A DNA stretch of 64,000 bases from an uncultured Bradyrhizobium sp. (GTDB lineage: Bacteria; Pseudomonadota; Alphaproteobacteria; Rhizobiales; Xanthobacteraceae): positions 124,001 to 188,000 of the forward strand of contig NZ_CAKZJO010000057.1 of NCBI RefSeq assembly GCF_936943645.1. Reading direction: 5' to 3'. The notes below the pieces were generated by a model. It did not search any database, was not told the DNA's origin, and saw only the letters and a program-made list of their open reading frames with translations. Of this stretch, positions 31,899 through 64,000 are shown one piece after another. The position numbers were made by a program, and so were the translations under genes. The stretch's first letter is position 1, and each line of letters starts with the position of its first letter.

Positions 31899-32957
31899 AT
31901 GGTCCGTATTGCTCATGCATTGCGCTTGCTGATCACCACCATTCTTCCGTCGGTCGCGGTTCCCGGGCTGGCGGTCGCCCAAGCTCCCGGCGAGATCTTC
32001 ACCTATCGCGGCGCTTGTGACGGCTCGGCGGCGGTCGCACTCGACCAGGATCGTTTCGCCGTCGCTGACGACGACAGCAATGTTCTCAACATCTTCCAGA
32101 TCGGAAAGCCGGACGCCCGGGCACTCAATCTCGATCGGTTTCTCGAAGCGCCGCTCAAGAAGAAACAACCCGGACCGGACGGCCAACCGGCCTTCAAGGA
32201 AGCCGACATCGAGGGAGCGGCGCGGATTGGCGATCGCATCTATTGGATCGGTTCGCATGGCCGCGATTCCGAAGGAGATGCCGAGCCGGGCCGTGCGCGG
32301 CTGTTCGCAACTCGTATCGTGTCGGATCCTGCGGGGCCCCGCCTCGAGCCAGTCAATTCCGTCGCCTACAAGAACCTGCGTGAGGACATGTTCGGCGATA
32401 AGAAGTTCGAGTTCTTGAAGCTTGCCTATGCGCCCGACAAGAAGAAGAACGGGCCGTCCCCGGAATCGGACAACGGATTCAACATCGAGGGACTAGCCGC
32501 TACGCCGGATGGACGCCTCCTGATCGGATTCCGCAATCCGCGCCCCGGCAACAAAGCCGTGGTGATCCGGCTCGACAATCCGGCCGAGGTGGTGGACGGC
32601 AAGCAGGCGGTGTTCGGCAAGACATGGCAGCTGGAGAATCTCGCGGGGCGCGGCATCCGCAGCATCGAGCGAATCAACAACACTTACGTCATCGTTGCGG
32701 GACCTCATCTCAACGCCGAGGATTCGAAGATCAAGCCGCCGTTCGCCCTCTACACCTGGAGCGGCGCGGAGGACGACAACAAGCCGGCAGAGATGAAGGA
32801 CGTGACAATTCCCGGTGATCTCACACCCGAAGCAGTGTTTGCGATTCCGGGCAGCGCCAACATGATGCTGCTATCCGATGACGGCAGCAAGGCCTGCAAG
32901 AAGGCGGAAAAGCCCGACAAATCGTTCCGGGCGATGACCCTGCCGGCGCCCAAATGA
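31899..32957 (+). CDS. Secreted DUF3616 protein
   Basis: Exported protein of 352 aa (signal ALRLLITTILPSVAVPGLAVAQ) with the DUF3616 pattern: CDGSAAVALDQDRFAVADDDSNVLNIF, then a beta-propeller-like run (DIEGAARIGDRIYWIGSHGRD; NIEGLAATPDGRLLIGFRNP). Function unknown; the fold suggests a periplasmic binding or phytase-like propeller, but no catalytic residues can be named. First gene of a co-directional trio: 32 bp to the haem protein. ATG at 31851 is a possible but less likely start. Confidence 0.8.
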   Translation: MVRIAHALRLLITTILPSVAVPGLAVAQAPGEIFTYRGACDGSAAVALDQDRFAVADDDSNVLNIFQIGKPDARALNLDRFLEAPLKKKQPGPDGQPAFKEADIEGAARIGDRIYWIGSHGRDSEGDAEPGRARLFATRIVSDPAGPRLEPVNSVAYKNLREDMFGDKKFEFLKLAYAPDKKKNGPSPESDNGFNIEGLAATPDGRLLIGFRNPRPGNKAVVIRLDNPAEVVDGKQAVFGKTWQLENLAGRGIRSIERINNTYVIVAGPHLNAEDSKIKPPFALYTWSGAEDDNKPAEMKDVTIPGDLTPEAVFAIPGSANMMLLSDDGSKACKKAEKPDKSFRAMTLPAPK

Positions 32958-32989
32958 CAGCTCGCGATCGATAACGCAGGGCGCTCCTG

Positions 32990-35023
32990 ATGAAACTGTC
33001 GCGAAGCCTTTTGTGGCAGCTCATGGCAACGTTGCTGCTGACCGCATCCGCGGCGGCCCATCCGCTCGACCGCGGCCTCGCGATCGTCGATCCGGCCGTC
33101 GTCGAAGAGCTCGACCGCGATTTTGGCGTCGCCCAGATGCTCGGAGGCATTGCACCCGGCGGCGGCACCATCAGCAACGACAAGCTGTTCGCTCGCCCCG
33201 GCATGGCAGAGGTTCGCAGATACATCCTGCAGCGGATCGAGGCATACAATCAGGAGTACAATCACGGCCACGACGACCCGCGCGTGCTCGACGCGCGGTT
33301 CGTGCAAGGGGCGATCGCACGCTTTCAGCTCGCTGGTGTCGTCAACCGCATGGACCGCGGTTTCGTCGGCGAGTTGAAGGAAGCGTGCGGCGAAATCAGG
33401 CTGATCTATCGCCTGTTCTACAAGGGTACTGCCACGGTCGGCGAAATCTCCGCGCCCGTGGAATCGCGCCTGCCGATGACGCTCAACGTCACCTTGAAGG
33501 CGAACACCGGGGACGGCTGCGCCGCCGTGGCGAAGCGCTGGCTCAATGCTCCGGCCGAAACGACCTCGGTTGCCGAGCAGGTGCAGCACTTCAAGACCAA
33601 GGGTGCGCTGGCGGGGGTCAAGCCGGCGCAGATCGACCGGCTCGAATTCAATTACCAGATTCTGCGCCGGCCTGCCGGCGAGTCCGACGTTGGCGTAGGC
33701 GACTTCGGCGGGCGCGCCGAATATCTGCTGTCCGTCTTCCGCTGGAGCAAACAGGACAAGGCTTTTGTCCGCAACCGGATGGAGAACCAGATCGATCCGG
33801 AGCGATTCCGCAACAACCCCGCCGATCGCAAGGCACTGAACGATGCCGTGATGTTGCTCGATTTCCTGCGCGATCTCGACAATGGCCGGGCCATGCTGCC
33901 GACCGCGCTGACCACACGCGAGGCGGTATCGATCTCGCCGGGGGGCCAGACCCGCACCCGCAACCGGCCGTTCGATAATTTGATGGACGAGAAGCGTTTC
34001 CAGCAACTGATGGCGCAATTCAAGGCTAAGGGCGAACGGCTGCAAAACATCGCCTCGTTTGAGAGCTTCGTGGCGCGGCTCAACGATCTGACCTGCGCGG
34101 GCTGTCACCAGACCCGCGCCATCGCCGGGTTCCATTTTCCCGGCGCCGATTGGGCCGCCGCCCCAAAGATCAACGCCGTGTTCGTGGCGGGCTCGCCGCA
34201 TTTCTACGGCGACATGCCGCGCCGCCGTGCTATCGTCGAGGCTTATGCGAACGGTGCCGCACCGAACTTCCGCCGCAGCTTCGCAGCCCGGCCGGAGCCC
34301 TCAACGGTGGCCGCACTGGCGGGCACGGAAATCGCCGATGGCTGGGGCGCGGTCTGCTACAAGCCGCCCGACCCCAGCAAGCCGGACAGCTCCTTTGCTG
34401 CCATAACGAGTTGCGCAAGCGGCCTCGAGTGCCAAGTCATCGCGCGCAGCAAGCGGCATTCCGGGATGGGCATGTGCCTGCCACCAGAAACATCCGTTCA
34501 GGTCGGCGATCCCCTGGAGATCACGACGGTCACCTACGGTGAGACCGGCGATGCCTTTGACCACGAACGTCTCAGCAAGCCTGAACCGGATGCAGGACGA
34601 GAACGCGCGCCGCACGTCGGGGAATTGCCCGAGAATTCGACGACGTCGAAATATGTCCGACAGCATCAGCGGGGGATGAGCGGTTTTGGCGGCTTCCCGG
34701 CAGGCATGCTGCGAATCCGCGGTTGCAGCGGTGCGCCCGGCGAGCCAGCGAGCGCGAACAATCCTGAATCCATCTGCGTGCAAATGGCCGATGACGGCTT
34801 CAACAAGTGCGTCGGAGAGAAGCCGTTTTCGCTGTGCCTCTCGGCGAGCGTTCCCAACCCCGTAGTCAAACCAGGGGGCGCGCGTGCCTGTGACATCGCC
34901 AAGCCCTGCCGCGAGGACTACATCTGTACGGGCAGTGAGAAAGTCGGGACCGGCGCCTGCATCCCTCCCTATTTCGTTTTCCAGTTCAGGGTGGACCGCC
35001 ACCCAAGCAACATTTCTCCATAA
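32990..35023 (+). CDS. Large secreted mono-haem protein with cysteine-rich tail
   Basis: A 677-aa protein of unknown function. Signal peptide LWQLMATLLLTASAAAHP. One c-type haem site, CAGCH at residues 369-373, in LNDLTCAGCHQTRAIAGFHFPG, so it is probably a periplasmic haem protein. The last ~240 residues contain two cysteine-rich blocks (ITSCASGLECQVIA..., then IAKPCREDYICTG...GACIPPYFVFQFRVD), likely disulfide-bonded. The N-terminal ~350 residues match no family I know. It lies 32 bp after the DUF3616 gene and 60 bp before the lysozyme-like gene. Confidence 0.75.
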   Translation: MKLSRSLLWQLMATLLLTASAAAHPLDRGLAIVDPAVVEELDRDFGVAQMLGGIAPGGGTISNDKLFARPGMAEVRRYILQRIEAYNQEYNHGHDDPRVLDARFVQGAIARFQLAGVVNRMDRGFVGELKEACGEIRLIYRLFYKGTATVGEISAPVESRLPMTLNVTLKANTGDGCAAVAKRWLNAPAETTSVAEQVQHFKTKGALAGVKPAQIDRLEFNYQILRRPAGESDVGVGDFGGRAEYLLSVFRWSKQDKAFVRNRMENQIDPERFRNNPADRKALNDAVMLLDFLRDLDNGRAMLPTALTTREAVSISPGGQTRTRNRPFDNLMDEKRFQQLMAQFKAKGERLQNIASFESFVARLNDLTCAGCHQTRAIAGFHFPGADWAAAPKINAVFVAGSPHFYGDMPRRRAIVEAYANGAAPNFRRSFAARPEPSTVAALAGTEIADGWGAVCYKPPDPSKPDSSFAAITSCASGLECQVIARSKRHSGMGMCLPPETSVQVGDPLEITTVTYGETGDAFDHERLSKPEPDAGRERAPHVGELPENSTTSKYVRQHQRGMSGFGGFPAGMLRIRGCSGAPGEPASANNPESICVQMADDGFNKCVGEKPFSLCLSASVPNPVVKPGGARACDIAKPCREDYICTGSEKVGTGACIPPYFVFQFRVDRHPSNISP

Positions 35024-35083
35024 TACGCGCGCTGACGGAGCTTGCAGGAACCTTCAATCGCGGATCGTACAAGGGAGCGTCAA

Positions 35084-36310
35084 ATGCCAATCGTGGGAAC
35101 GGGATGGGAGCTTCATCTCAAGCGCCTTGGGATGCACAAGAGCGGATCGAAACAACGCACCTATGGCAGTTACCAGGTCTATATCGACGGCGAAGCTCAG
35201 CCGTCCCTGGCAGGTTTCATCTGCGAGAGATTGGGGCCCGGCGACAACACGACCGCGAGCAACGGCAAGCGCATCGAGGCAAAGACCTATCCCCTATGGA
35301 CGCAGTTCGGTCACTACCGTTCGATCGGCTATTCCACGAGTGAGGACGTGGCCGGCAAGCCGCCGATGCCCGCCATCCTGCTGCTGGGGACCGGCGCGCG
35401 AACGGGGATTCTGATTCATCCCGCGCATCCGCCGAACCTCTATTTGTCGAGCATCGGCTGCCTCAATCCGACCAGCGCCGTCGGCCCCAAGGACCTCATC
35501 GACTTCTGGGATTCACGCCGCCGCGTGATCGCCCTGTTGGAGAGCCTGAAGGTCCATGCACCCGCCGCTTTCGCGCATGAGGTCACCACCCGGATCAAGG
35601 ACGCCTCGATCGTCATCGACGGCGAACCGACCAAGCAGCTCACCGCGACGCCCACTCCTGCTTTCGAAGCGGTATCGGCGGAGACGGCGCTATTACTACC
35701 GATCTCCAAGGCGTCGGCGCTGATCTGCGCCAGATGGCTGATGCAGAATTTCGGCGACAAGCTTACGAACGCCTGCGCCGGCAAGGCCTACCAGCCCAAA
35801 CATCTCTGCGCGATCGTGTGCCAGGAAACCGCCTATAAATGGATTCCCTGGATCGGCACCCAGTCGGTTCAGACCATCGTCGAGCGGGCAGTGTTCGATG
35901 CGAGCGGCGACTACCCCGGTACAACGCGCACAGCCTTTCCAGTGAACACAAAGGCGTTCCGCGACAAATACGGAAAGCCATTCACCGACATGCTGATCGC
36001 GGAGGCGAACAAGACCCGCCAGCTGCAGGGCTGGGGTGACAAGCCCTGGGTCTACAAGGGCTACGGCCTGTTTCAATACGACTTGCAGCACGTCAAAACC
36101 GCTGAAGATTTTTTCAAGAACAGGGAATGGTACAGTTTCGACAATTGCCTGCGCCGCGTCGTCGAGGAGCTCGACAGCAAACTGACCGCGCAGGGCGGAA
36201 ACCTCTGGAAGGCCATCAAGGCCTACAACGGCTCAGGCGCAGCCGCCGAGCGATACATGCAAAACGTCAAGGTGTTTACGGATTATTGCGAGGAGGTGAC
36301 CGGACCTTGA
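35084..36310 (+). CDS. Two-domain protein: DUF5675-like plus lysozyme/SLT-like
   Basis: A 408-aa protein with two apparent modules. Residues ~1-135 resemble DUF5675 (GFICERLGPGDNT..., ILIHPAHPP with H112, SIGCLNPT with C126; a His...Gly-Cys pair reminiscent of L,D-transpeptidases). Residues ~215-400 look lysozyme/transglycosylase-like: catalytic-type E248 in CQETAYKW, GYGLFQYD, and LWKAIKAYNGSG. A peptidoglycan role is inferred. No signal peptide is visible, so export is unclear. AAGGGAG fixes the ATG at 35084. Third gene of the trio. Confidence 0.7.
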   Translation: MPIVGTGWELHLKRLGMHKSGSKQRTYGSYQVYIDGEAQPSLAGFICERLGPGDNTTASNGKRIEAKTYPLWTQFGHYRSIGYSTSEDVAGKPPMPAILLLGTGARTGILIHPAHPPNLYLSSIGCLNPTSAVGPKDLIDFWDSRRRVIALLESLKVHAPAAFAHEVTTRIKDASIVIDGEPTKQLTATPTPAFEAVSAETALLLPISKASALICARWLMQNFGDKLTNACAGKAYQPKHLCAIVCQETAYKWIPWIGTQSVQTIVERAVFDASGDYPGTTRTAFPVNTKAFRDKYGKPFTDMLIAEANKTRQLQGWGDKPWVYKGYGLFQYDLQHVKTAEDFFKNREWYSFDNCLRRVVEELDSKLTAQGGNLWKAIKAYNGSGAAAERYMQNVKVFTDYCEEVTGP

Positions 36311-36397: not shown

Positions 36398-36471
36398 TGG
36401 CTGGGGAACCTGGATTCGAACCAAGACAAACAGAGTCAGAGTCTGTTGTGCTACCGTTACACCATTCCCCA
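36398..36471 (-). tRNA. tRNA-Gln (anticodon CTG)
   Basis: Reverse strand reads as a full cloverleaf: acceptor TGGGGAA/TTCCCCA with G discriminator and encoded CCA; D-arm GTGTAACGGTAGCAC; anticodon stem ACAGA/TCTGT with loop CTCTGAC, giving anticodon CTG; T-arm CTTGG-TTCGAAT-CCAGG. 74 nt including CCA. No integrase or attachment repeat beside it. The remaining DNA from 36311 to 36687 holds no credible gene. Confidence 0.95.
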
Positions 36472-61696: not shown

Positions 61697-64000
61697 TCAG
61701 AACGCGACGCGAACACCACCCTTGGCCGAGCCGGTGCGGCTCTGGTCGGACATCACCGTGCCCTCCACCGCGCCGAACACGGAGACGTTGGCCGTGGCGT
61801 GATAGTCGAAACCGAGGCCGGCGACGGCACCGACGGTGCTGCGGCTGCCCGGGGTGACGAAGGACAAATTCTGGCCGAGCAGCACCGTATTGATGCTGGT
61901 GTCGCCCGCGCGCTGCAGCGCGATCACGCCACCATGGATGTTGGCCTTCAGCTCGCCGCCGGCGAAGCCGGTGACGCGGGACAGGTCGACCTCGCCGCGC
62001 TCCTCGAAATCCTGCAGCGTGCGACCGCCGACGGACAGCGACTGCGCCGAGCCGCTCTCGCTATACCCGTCGAAGCGGCCGGCGACGTAACGCAGCCGCG
62101 CCGTCGGCGTCAGCACGTAGCCGTTGCCGATGTTGAGCCTGTAGCCGTAGGCCACCTCCGGGCTGACATACCAGCCGCTGTAGTTCGCCGTGGCCGTCTC
62201 CATACCGCCGACGGCCGCATTGTTCAGCACCAGACGGCGCGACCTGTTGTCGGCATTGCCGCCCTGGATCGTGAAGTCGAAGAACTGCGAGGCCCATTCG
62301 AAACGGCTGTAGGCGCCGGCGAAGACGTAGTTGGTGTCGACCGACTGCGAGTTGAGGTCGACCGAGAGACCGCCCTGCCCGCCGCCGAGGAAGGCGCCGA
62401 CCAGCCAGTCCGGCCGCACCTTGCGGTCGATACCGATCGCCCCACCCCATGCCGTCGAGGTCGCGCGCAGCGTCGACGCCGTCTCGTCCTGGATACGCTG
62501 CCCGCCAAAGCTGTTGGCCCAGACCGTGATCGGCGCCGGATCGGTCCAGAGGCTGCGCGGCGCTTTGGTGAAGGGCCCGGCCTGCGCCGTTTCAGGCGCA
62601 TAGGCCATCGCCATCATGTTGCTGCCGGCTGTACCCGTGCCGCCGCTCAGGCGCCCCTGCACCAGCGAAGAGACGCCGCCGGTGAAGTCCATCAGCGTAC
62701 GGTCGGTCTGCGCCAGCGCGGTCGGATCGAGCGTCGCCAGCGTCAGGCCGGAGGTGACCGAGGGACCGTTGAAGCTGCCGTTGGAGATATTGGTCTTGAT
62801 CGTACCCTCGAAGTTGACGAAGGTCGGCAGGTTGATCGTCGTCAGCGAAGACACCTTGCTGCTGATCGGCGACAGGTTGACGTTGACGACGTCGGCACCG
62901 AATTCGAAATCGACCACGCCGTTGATCTTCGAGCCCGGCAGCAGCGTCAGCGTGTCAGCAGCATTCGACAGCAGGATCGCGGTGCCGCCGGTTCCGGTGA
63001 TCGTGCCCGAATTCGTGATGTTCGCGCCACCACCCACGCTGATACCGGTGCCACCGGAAATGACGCCGGAGTTGAACACGGTCGCGGTGGTGGCCGCTCC
63101 GATGCCGCCGCCTGCTGTTCCCGAGATGGCCCCCGCGTTGTTGACGACGAGATTCCCCTGCGCAACGATGCCATGAAGGCTGCCCGAAATGCTGCCGCCC
63201 CCAGCGTTCGTCAAGCCGAGACTGCCGAGGGTCTGGATGCCGTACCTTCCCGAGATCGTGCCCGCATTGAAGATCTGCGCCTGCCCTTGCGCAAAGACCC
63301 CTGGAGCAACCAGCGCACCCTGGATGGTGCCCGAGTTGCTCAAGGTGAGATCGCCGAAGACCTGAACCGCGCTTCCAGCCACCGACCTCAGGATGCCGGA
63401 ATTGCTGATGGCGGCGGACTGCGCGTCGATGGCAGCCCCACCGAGGGTCGATTCCATGATGCCGGCGTTGCTGACCCTGACGTCGGCGCCTCTAACGGCA
63501 AACTGGCCGGCGGAAATCAATCCGCCCGCCGCGTTCTCGACGGTCGCCGTGCCGGTGGCGAGGACACCGATTCCGCCGCCAATCCCACCCTTGATTGTCC
63601 CCGCATTGAATACGCTGGCGTTTGCGCCCGCAGAAATCGCGACAGCCCCTAGGCTCGTGCCCTGGATCGTCCCGCCTGCATTGTTGTTCGCGGCAACTGC
63701 GCCTGTCGACGTGCGGATCGCGTATCTTTCGCCCGAAATCAGACCGATGTTGGCCGTCACATTCACTGTGTCGCCGTCGATGCCGATACCTCCGGTCGCT
63801 AGCGCAGATATTTGCCCGGCATTGGCGACCGTAACCGTGGTCGCCAGGATGGCCTTGCCGTTGGCGTCGAGCGCCGAGATCGTGCCGCCCTCATTGTTGG
63901 AAACGTTTGCCGTGTTTGCCGTAATGCCACGTGTGCCGCCGGAGATGATGCCGGTATTTGCCGACAACACCACCCCATCTGCTTCGATCGCCGCGCCGTT
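61697..64000 (-). CDS. Autotransporter with outer-membrane beta-barrel (N-terminus beyond window)
   Basis: The C-terminal 767 residues of a type Va secreted protein. The passenger part is built of repeated NAGxISG/NSGTIxG units ([30 protein letters not shown]), a beta-helix pattern. From about 500 residues before the end comes the autotransporter barrel ([35 protein letters not shown]) ending in GGVRVAF with a terminal Phe. The frame is open to the right edge; the GTG at 63973 in the track is internal. Function likely adhesion or surface display, unproven. Confidence 0.88.

Follow-up and report, generated by a model that had tools for sequence, protein, structure and literature searches.

The gene clusters that surround bacterial Hedgehog (BacHh) genes (PMC6027127) are the closest described counterparts of the locus analysed here. 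Excerpts of one account describe the Hedgehog genes of Mesorhizobium and Bradyrhizobium as ringed by genes for lysozyme, amidase, M23, trypsin-like, M54, endonuclease and S53 proteins (PMC8052667). The same excerpts name 'possibly a Phytase (DUF3616)' near bacterial Hedgehog genes and propose a role in feeding or scavenging. A further member of the DUF3616 family (PF12275), XAC2848/Bdp7 of Xanthomonas, was recovered from a biofilm mutant screen (PMC3130047).

The present locus is a trio of genes (Table 1) in a 64,000-nucleotide stretch of DNA (the window) from a Bradyrhizobium genome, whose relatives were identified by comparison. The trio is best read, with a probability of about 0.6, as a small accessory operon of envelope-acting, exported or released enzymes at a tRNA-Gln hotspot, used to attack or scavenge microbial walls. 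It looks like a part, or a modified form, of the wall-hydrolase islands carried on rhizobial plasmids and chromosomes. An earlier note, made from the sequence of the window, had described three genes running in one direction and separated by 32 and 60 bp, and the coordinates obtained here agree exactly (32 bp between genes 1 and 2, 60 bp between genes 2 and 3). This spacing and orientation are operon-like, and the three genes may be co-transcribed; a sequence scan of the trio interior, weak evidence in itself, found no consensus promoter and no terminator on the + strand. Relative to Bradyrhizobium iriomotense, dN/dS is 0.14 for gene 1, 0.11 for gene 2 and 0.15 for gene 3, indicating that all three are real genes under purifying selection. 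A known defence system is not indicated for the trio, since PADLOC matches were at chance level only, and a phage origin is disfavoured by a phage collection without relatives of gene 3 and by viral contigs without relatives of gene 2 or gene 3. Sequence searches of the PDB with genes 2 and 3 returned no relatives, and AlphaFold2 models of both, built from two-sequence alignments, were unusable (pLDDT about 31-33).

Table 1. Positions of the trio, its sequence features and the adjoining tRNA gene in the window.
Feature	Position	Strand	Description
Gene 1	31899-32957	+	352 aa; exported DUF3616 protein; PF12275 match
Gene 2	32990-35023	+	677 aa; exported putative mono-haem c-type protein with Cys-rich C-terminal tail
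18-bp repeat in gene 2, GTCGTCGAAGAGCTCGAC	33098..33115	+	with the gene 3 copy, marks the site of the G016 deletion scar
CAGCH motif in gene 2	34094..34108	+	residues 369-373; predicted haem-binding motif; conserved GFH shortly after
Cys-rich tail of gene 2	34355..34960	+	residues 456-657, 12 Cys; genus-wide paralogue lacks it beyond about residue 497
Gene 3	35084-36310	+	408 aa; leaderless, two-domain, probably peptidoglycan-acting
Gene 3 N-terminal domain	35084..35653	+	DUF5675-like; L,D-transpeptidase-like H...S-x-G-C motif (H112, C126)
Gene 3 C-terminal domain	35699..36307	+	lysozyme/transglycosylase-like by motif: QE248T, GYGxFQY, AYN
Matching 18-bp repeat in gene 3, GTCGTCGAGGAGCTCGAC	36158..36175	+	partner of the gene 2 copy
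tRNA-Gln (CUG)	36398-36471	-	directly downstream of gene 3; variable integration hotspot in relatives

The source genome contains no DUF3616 match other than gene 1, which scores 45.6 bits against PF12275, above the gathering cut-off of 20.6, and has an N-terminus that is signal-peptide-like by hydropathy, in keeping with its earlier description as an exported DUF3616 protein. Against the Phytase-like esterase family (PF13449), it reaches 20.2 bits, under the gathering cut-off of 27.6. The exported protein would most likely serve as an ester or phosphoester hydrolase acting on the same wall material as the product of gene 3. Many orthologues of gene 1 sit in catabolic or P450 neighbourhoods without a wall enzyme; in Bradyrhizobium G024, gene 1 is followed by a small gene that matches SLT weakly.

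Gene 2 encodes 677 aa and, as the earlier note had it, is predicted to be exported and contains a single CxxCH; its tail is rich in Cys. Its N-terminus is signal-peptide-like by hydropathy, CxxCH occurs in no other of the 54 genes called in the window, and 12 of its 16 Cys fall in the tail. The extended motif CxxCH-x8-GFHxxGxD is kept in 31/31 family members examined, and this conservation points to a likely c-type haem site, a second histidine being conserved as well. Gene 2 combines two features expected of a c-type mono-haem protein, namely predicted export (a signal-peptide-like N-terminus by hydropathy) and a conserved CxxCH. Neither gene 2 nor any of nine diverse homologues matched a Pfam or NCBIfam family, known cytochrome c families included. 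If haem is attached, the exported protein would be a mono-haem redox protein adding a dispensable redox or binding function to the set. A stronger proposal, that gene 2 founds an exported mono-haem family whose members contribute redox chemistry to the breakdown of wall polysaccharides outside the cell, perhaps as electron donor or peroxidase alongside lysozyme- or chitosanase-type enzymes, is a doubtful one; if true, it would reveal an oxidative-plus-hydrolytic wall-attack module in rhizobia. No evidence was obtained for the surface redox or contact-dependent process that the earlier note had suggested.

The distribution of the gene 2 family is far wider than that of the trio. A match is present in 72/73 sampled Bradyrhizobium genomes, nearly always as a copy of about 510 aa without the Cys-rich tail, and the source genome itself also encodes such a tailless paralogue. 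Several further families of the order have full-length copies, mostly stand-alone and chromosomal, and among 299 genomes sampled from the phylum relatives of gene 2 are confined to the same order. Because most full-length homologues stand alone, the idea that gene 2 serves specifically as a partner of wall enzymes was rejected. In the tree of the family, the window gene does not group clearly with a plasmid clade associated with wall enzymes, and the pairing of gene 2 with such enzymes may therefore have arisen twice, once in the window pair and once in the plasmid clade. Bradyrhizobium G055 carries a divergent full-length relative of gene 2 (26% identity; L036:6544-8709) adjoining a TctC gene that is a flank of the trio in the window; the gene 1 of G055 lies about 1 Mb from this relative.

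Gene 3 begins at an ATG (35084) preceded by a ribosome-binding-site-like GGGAG, and its product passes no Pfam cut-off. Its two-domain structure, already noted, is clear from comparison with relatives. In the N-domain, the pattern LIHP...SxGC(L/F/I)N is kept in nine divergent members, H112 and C126 being invariant in all nine. We take the order of these motifs to resemble that of L,D-transpeptidases. The model PF18925 (DUF5675) is matched by 4/14 sequences in the set of gene 3 relatives (best 8e-6), though not by gene 3 itself, and the homologous N-domain of Pararhizobium gei scores 19.1 bits against a cut-off of 26.7. In the C-domain, QE(S/T), GYGxFQYD and AYN are kept in most of 14 sequences from several genera; profile comparison with SLT domains is weak (hhalign probability 11%), and PF18013 is matched at E = 0.2. 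Elsewhere the C-domain is fused to wall enzymes or proteases, with Amidase_3, M74, S8 and DUF2272 plus SH3 as partners. On a plasmid of Rhizobium sp. TH2 (L088:6243-11198), a single 1651-aa protein unites GDSL, Amidase_3, gene-3-type lysozyme-like, M74 and S8 domains. The protein probably acts on peptidoglycan, most likely cutting it by two activities, one of an L,D-transpeptidase/carboxypeptidase-like His/Cys domain and the other of a lysozyme-like Glu domain. The earlier description of a peptidoglycan-type, wall-cleaving protein thus draws its support from motifs and relatives. Gene 3 has no signal peptide, so its product would have to leave the cell through lysis or some exporter.

The intact trio is rare, being found in the source genome and in B. 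iriomotense SZCCT0007, where gene order and flanks are the same and identity is 85, 91 and 87% for genes 1, 2 and 3. The dS values of trio and flanks are comparable (0.43-0.54 against B. iriomotense), and on this evidence the trio looks vertically inherited. Full-length gene 3 is present in 5/272 Bradyrhizobium genomes, and gene 1 adjoins it in every one of the five. Gene 2 is the unstable member. It is absent from G029 and G221; in the latter, about 17 bp of its start remain, fused to the leader of gene 3, showing that gene 2 was there deleted from an ancestral trio. In G016, codons 1-44 of gene 2 run directly into codons 359-408 of gene 3, the scar lying at an 18-bp repeat common to both genes, and in G317 the end of gene 3 alone remains. 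Loss of gene 2 has thus taken place in at least three lineages, in two of which genes 1 and 3 are intact, and gene 2 appears dispensable to its neighbours. An obligate three-gene system is rejected on the same grounds: a secreted, wall-acting set of the kind considered in the earlier note stays plausible, an obligate three-part system does not. These scars amount to a natural experiment, in that comparison of relatives with and without gene 2 could reveal what the haem protein contributes.

Repeated loss is also what would be expected if the three had come together by chance at a tRNA hotspot, gene 1 as a DUF3616 esterase long resident there and the other two genes as unrelated cargo, without joint function. 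The same explanation would account for the G055 locus, in which a gene 1 orthologue occupies the same position without genes 2 and 3, for the mostly stand-alone occurrence of the gene 2 family, for the variability of the tRNA-Gln site, and for the convergent arrangement of genes 1 and 3 in G298, from which it follows that a shared transcript of these two genes is not universal. Chance placement nevertheless sits poorly with the pairing of genes 1 and 3 in all five genomes that have a full-length gene 3, with the operon-like spacing and orientation of the trio, and with the recurrence of a gene 1-lysozyme adjacency in other genera and of all three families in a single P. gei island. It is accordingly considered unlikely, while remaining the strongest competitor of the accessory-operon reading.

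Other cargo is found at the tRNA-Gln hotspot in relatives, its variability being apparent at L003:11335-16475, L092:5502-6864 and L094:6177-15116. In B. iriomotense the site holds genes for a BTAD regulator, a PAP2 protein and a Peptidase_A4 protein, and in G221 an integrase cuts the tRNA-Gln gene. Two neighbouring caspase-domain (Peptidase_C14) genes adjoin genes 1 and 3 in G298 (L094:9182-11518), and another caspase gene lies near gene 3 on a plasmid of R. leguminosarum 248. At the far end of the window (61697-64000, - strand), a long open reading frame of repeat-rich, autotransporter-like appearance runs past the window end.

Outside Bradyrhizobium, in a survey whose sampling was deepest within Hyphomicrobiales and in which neighbours lacking a Pfam match were identified by visual inspection of their sequences, members of the same families recur in plasmid islands. 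All three lie inside about 27 kb on a P. gei plasmid, in the company of chitosanases, phospholipase D, an L,D-transpeptidase and enzymes of the M15/SLT types. In this island, DUF3616 has YkuD_2 transpeptidase and GH46 chitosanase genes as neighbours. The homologue of gene 2 adjoins a GH75-type chitosanase gene (at 140 bp), the product of which has the viral chitosanase 7tvm as its PDB relative, as well as a gene coding for a gene-3-type N-domain with a Hedgehog-type DD-peptidase. M15 and phospholipase D genes stand between these two parts of the island. Other relatives of gene 2 on rhizobial plasmids have comparable neighbours: in R. lusitanum (at 41 bp) a gene whose exported product gives a weak peptidoglycan-binding match, in Mesorhizobium AR02 (at 11 bp) a peptidoglycan-binding protein gene and, in G804, a gene recognised by eye as related to the P. 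gei chitosanase. On plasmids of S. medicae and R. ruizarguesonis, DUF3616 lies directly upstream of a gene-3-type lysozyme-like domain fused to DUF2272, with 164 and 145 bp, respectively, between the matches and the lysozyme-like domain N-terminal in the protein. A random-placement test over three plasmids gave p of about 5e-5, a value that overstates the case because two of the three, those of S. medicae and R. ruizarguesonis, are related (77% identity). The earlier note had held that its grouping would fail if homologues of the three genes never neighboured each other in other genomes; the B. iriomotense trio and the P. gei island provide such neighbours. Given the recurrence of these families in accessory wall-enzyme clusters of other rhizobia, the trio looks like a small and readily lost part of a known, little-studied toolkit for wall attack or scavenging, and not like a system of a new kind.

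The modularity of gene 3 raises the further possibility of an antibacterial effector set, in which the gene 3 product would be a toxin that enters rival cells, for instance through a type VI or contractile-injection apparatus, with genes 1 and 2 accessory or protective. The protein is leaderless, and a constant N-domain is combined with exchangeable C-domains, lysozyme-like in rhizobia and a Hedgehog-type DD-peptidase in P. gei (PF01085, 3e-50); the plasmid neighbours, moreover, include nucleases, phospholipase D, proteases and caspases. The P. gei protein (L084:5319-6557), a DUF5675-like N-domain followed by a Hedgehog-type DD-peptidase, has an architecture possibly unreported for bacterial Hedgehog proteins. 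An effector set is improbable in view of the immediate neighbourhoods read, which contain no VgrG, PAAR, Hcp, spike or recognised immunity gene. The N-domain has a conserved H/C motif of its own, giving it the look of an enzyme rather than of a sorting tag, and gene 2, dispensable and broadly conserved without gene 3, is unlike an immunity protein. Least probable is a housekeeping role, in which the cell would remodel its own wall or scavenge phosphate or esters without other organisms being involved: a weakly phytase-like gene 1 and a gene 2 family in nearly all Bradyrhizobium would suit it, but the patchy distribution (full-length gene 3 in so few of the 272 genomes), the repeated loss and the location on plasmids or at a tRNA hotspot with chitosanases do not.

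If the trio is instead an accessory operon of envelope-acting enzymes, all three proteins would act outside the producing cell, and the benefit would come from attack on, or scavenging of, the walls of neighbouring microbes. Three orphan families, namely DUF3616, a haem family without a model and the DUF5675-like/lysozyme-like proteins, would thereby be tied to one accessory wall-degradation toolkit of rhizobia, which the shared N-domain connects with the bacterial Hedgehog-type peptidases.

Gene 1 has Pfam membership in common with XAC2848/Bdp7, itself a protein without known biochemical function (PMC3130047). The N-domain of gene 3 resembles DUF5675 (PF18925) and YkuD proteins in its succession of ILIHP, SxGC and a C-terminal stretch; unlike these, gene 3 itself matches neither model, and the YkuD likeness is at the level of motifs. 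Likewise, the C-domain presents E[ST], GYGxFQ and AYN in the same order as SLT and phage lysozyme-like transglycosylases (PF01464, PF18013), whereas its scores are under all cut-offs for members of these families. The designation of the trio as an undescribed system in the earlier note is only partly borne out, since wall-hydrolase clusters with DUF3616 around Hedgehog genes already appear in excerpts of PMC8052667; a gene-2-type haem protein goes unmentioned in the excerpted cluster account. The trio differs from the BacHh clusters in that the cassette in the window comprises three genes only and the C-domain of gene 3 is lysozyme-like, by motif, instead of Hedgehog. The Hedgehog domain (PF01085) was found nowhere in the source genome and in 1/271 Bradyrhizobium genomes. 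The two also have features in common: both are accessory and non-core, DUF3616 is common to both, as far as excerpts of PMC8052667 describe the clusters, and in P. gei the gene 3 N-domain is fused to a Hedgehog-type DD-peptidase within an island that also holds the gene 1 and gene 2 families. With families in common but no Hedgehog gene, the trio is thus better regarded as a variant of a kind already known than as one of the Hedgehog islands proper.
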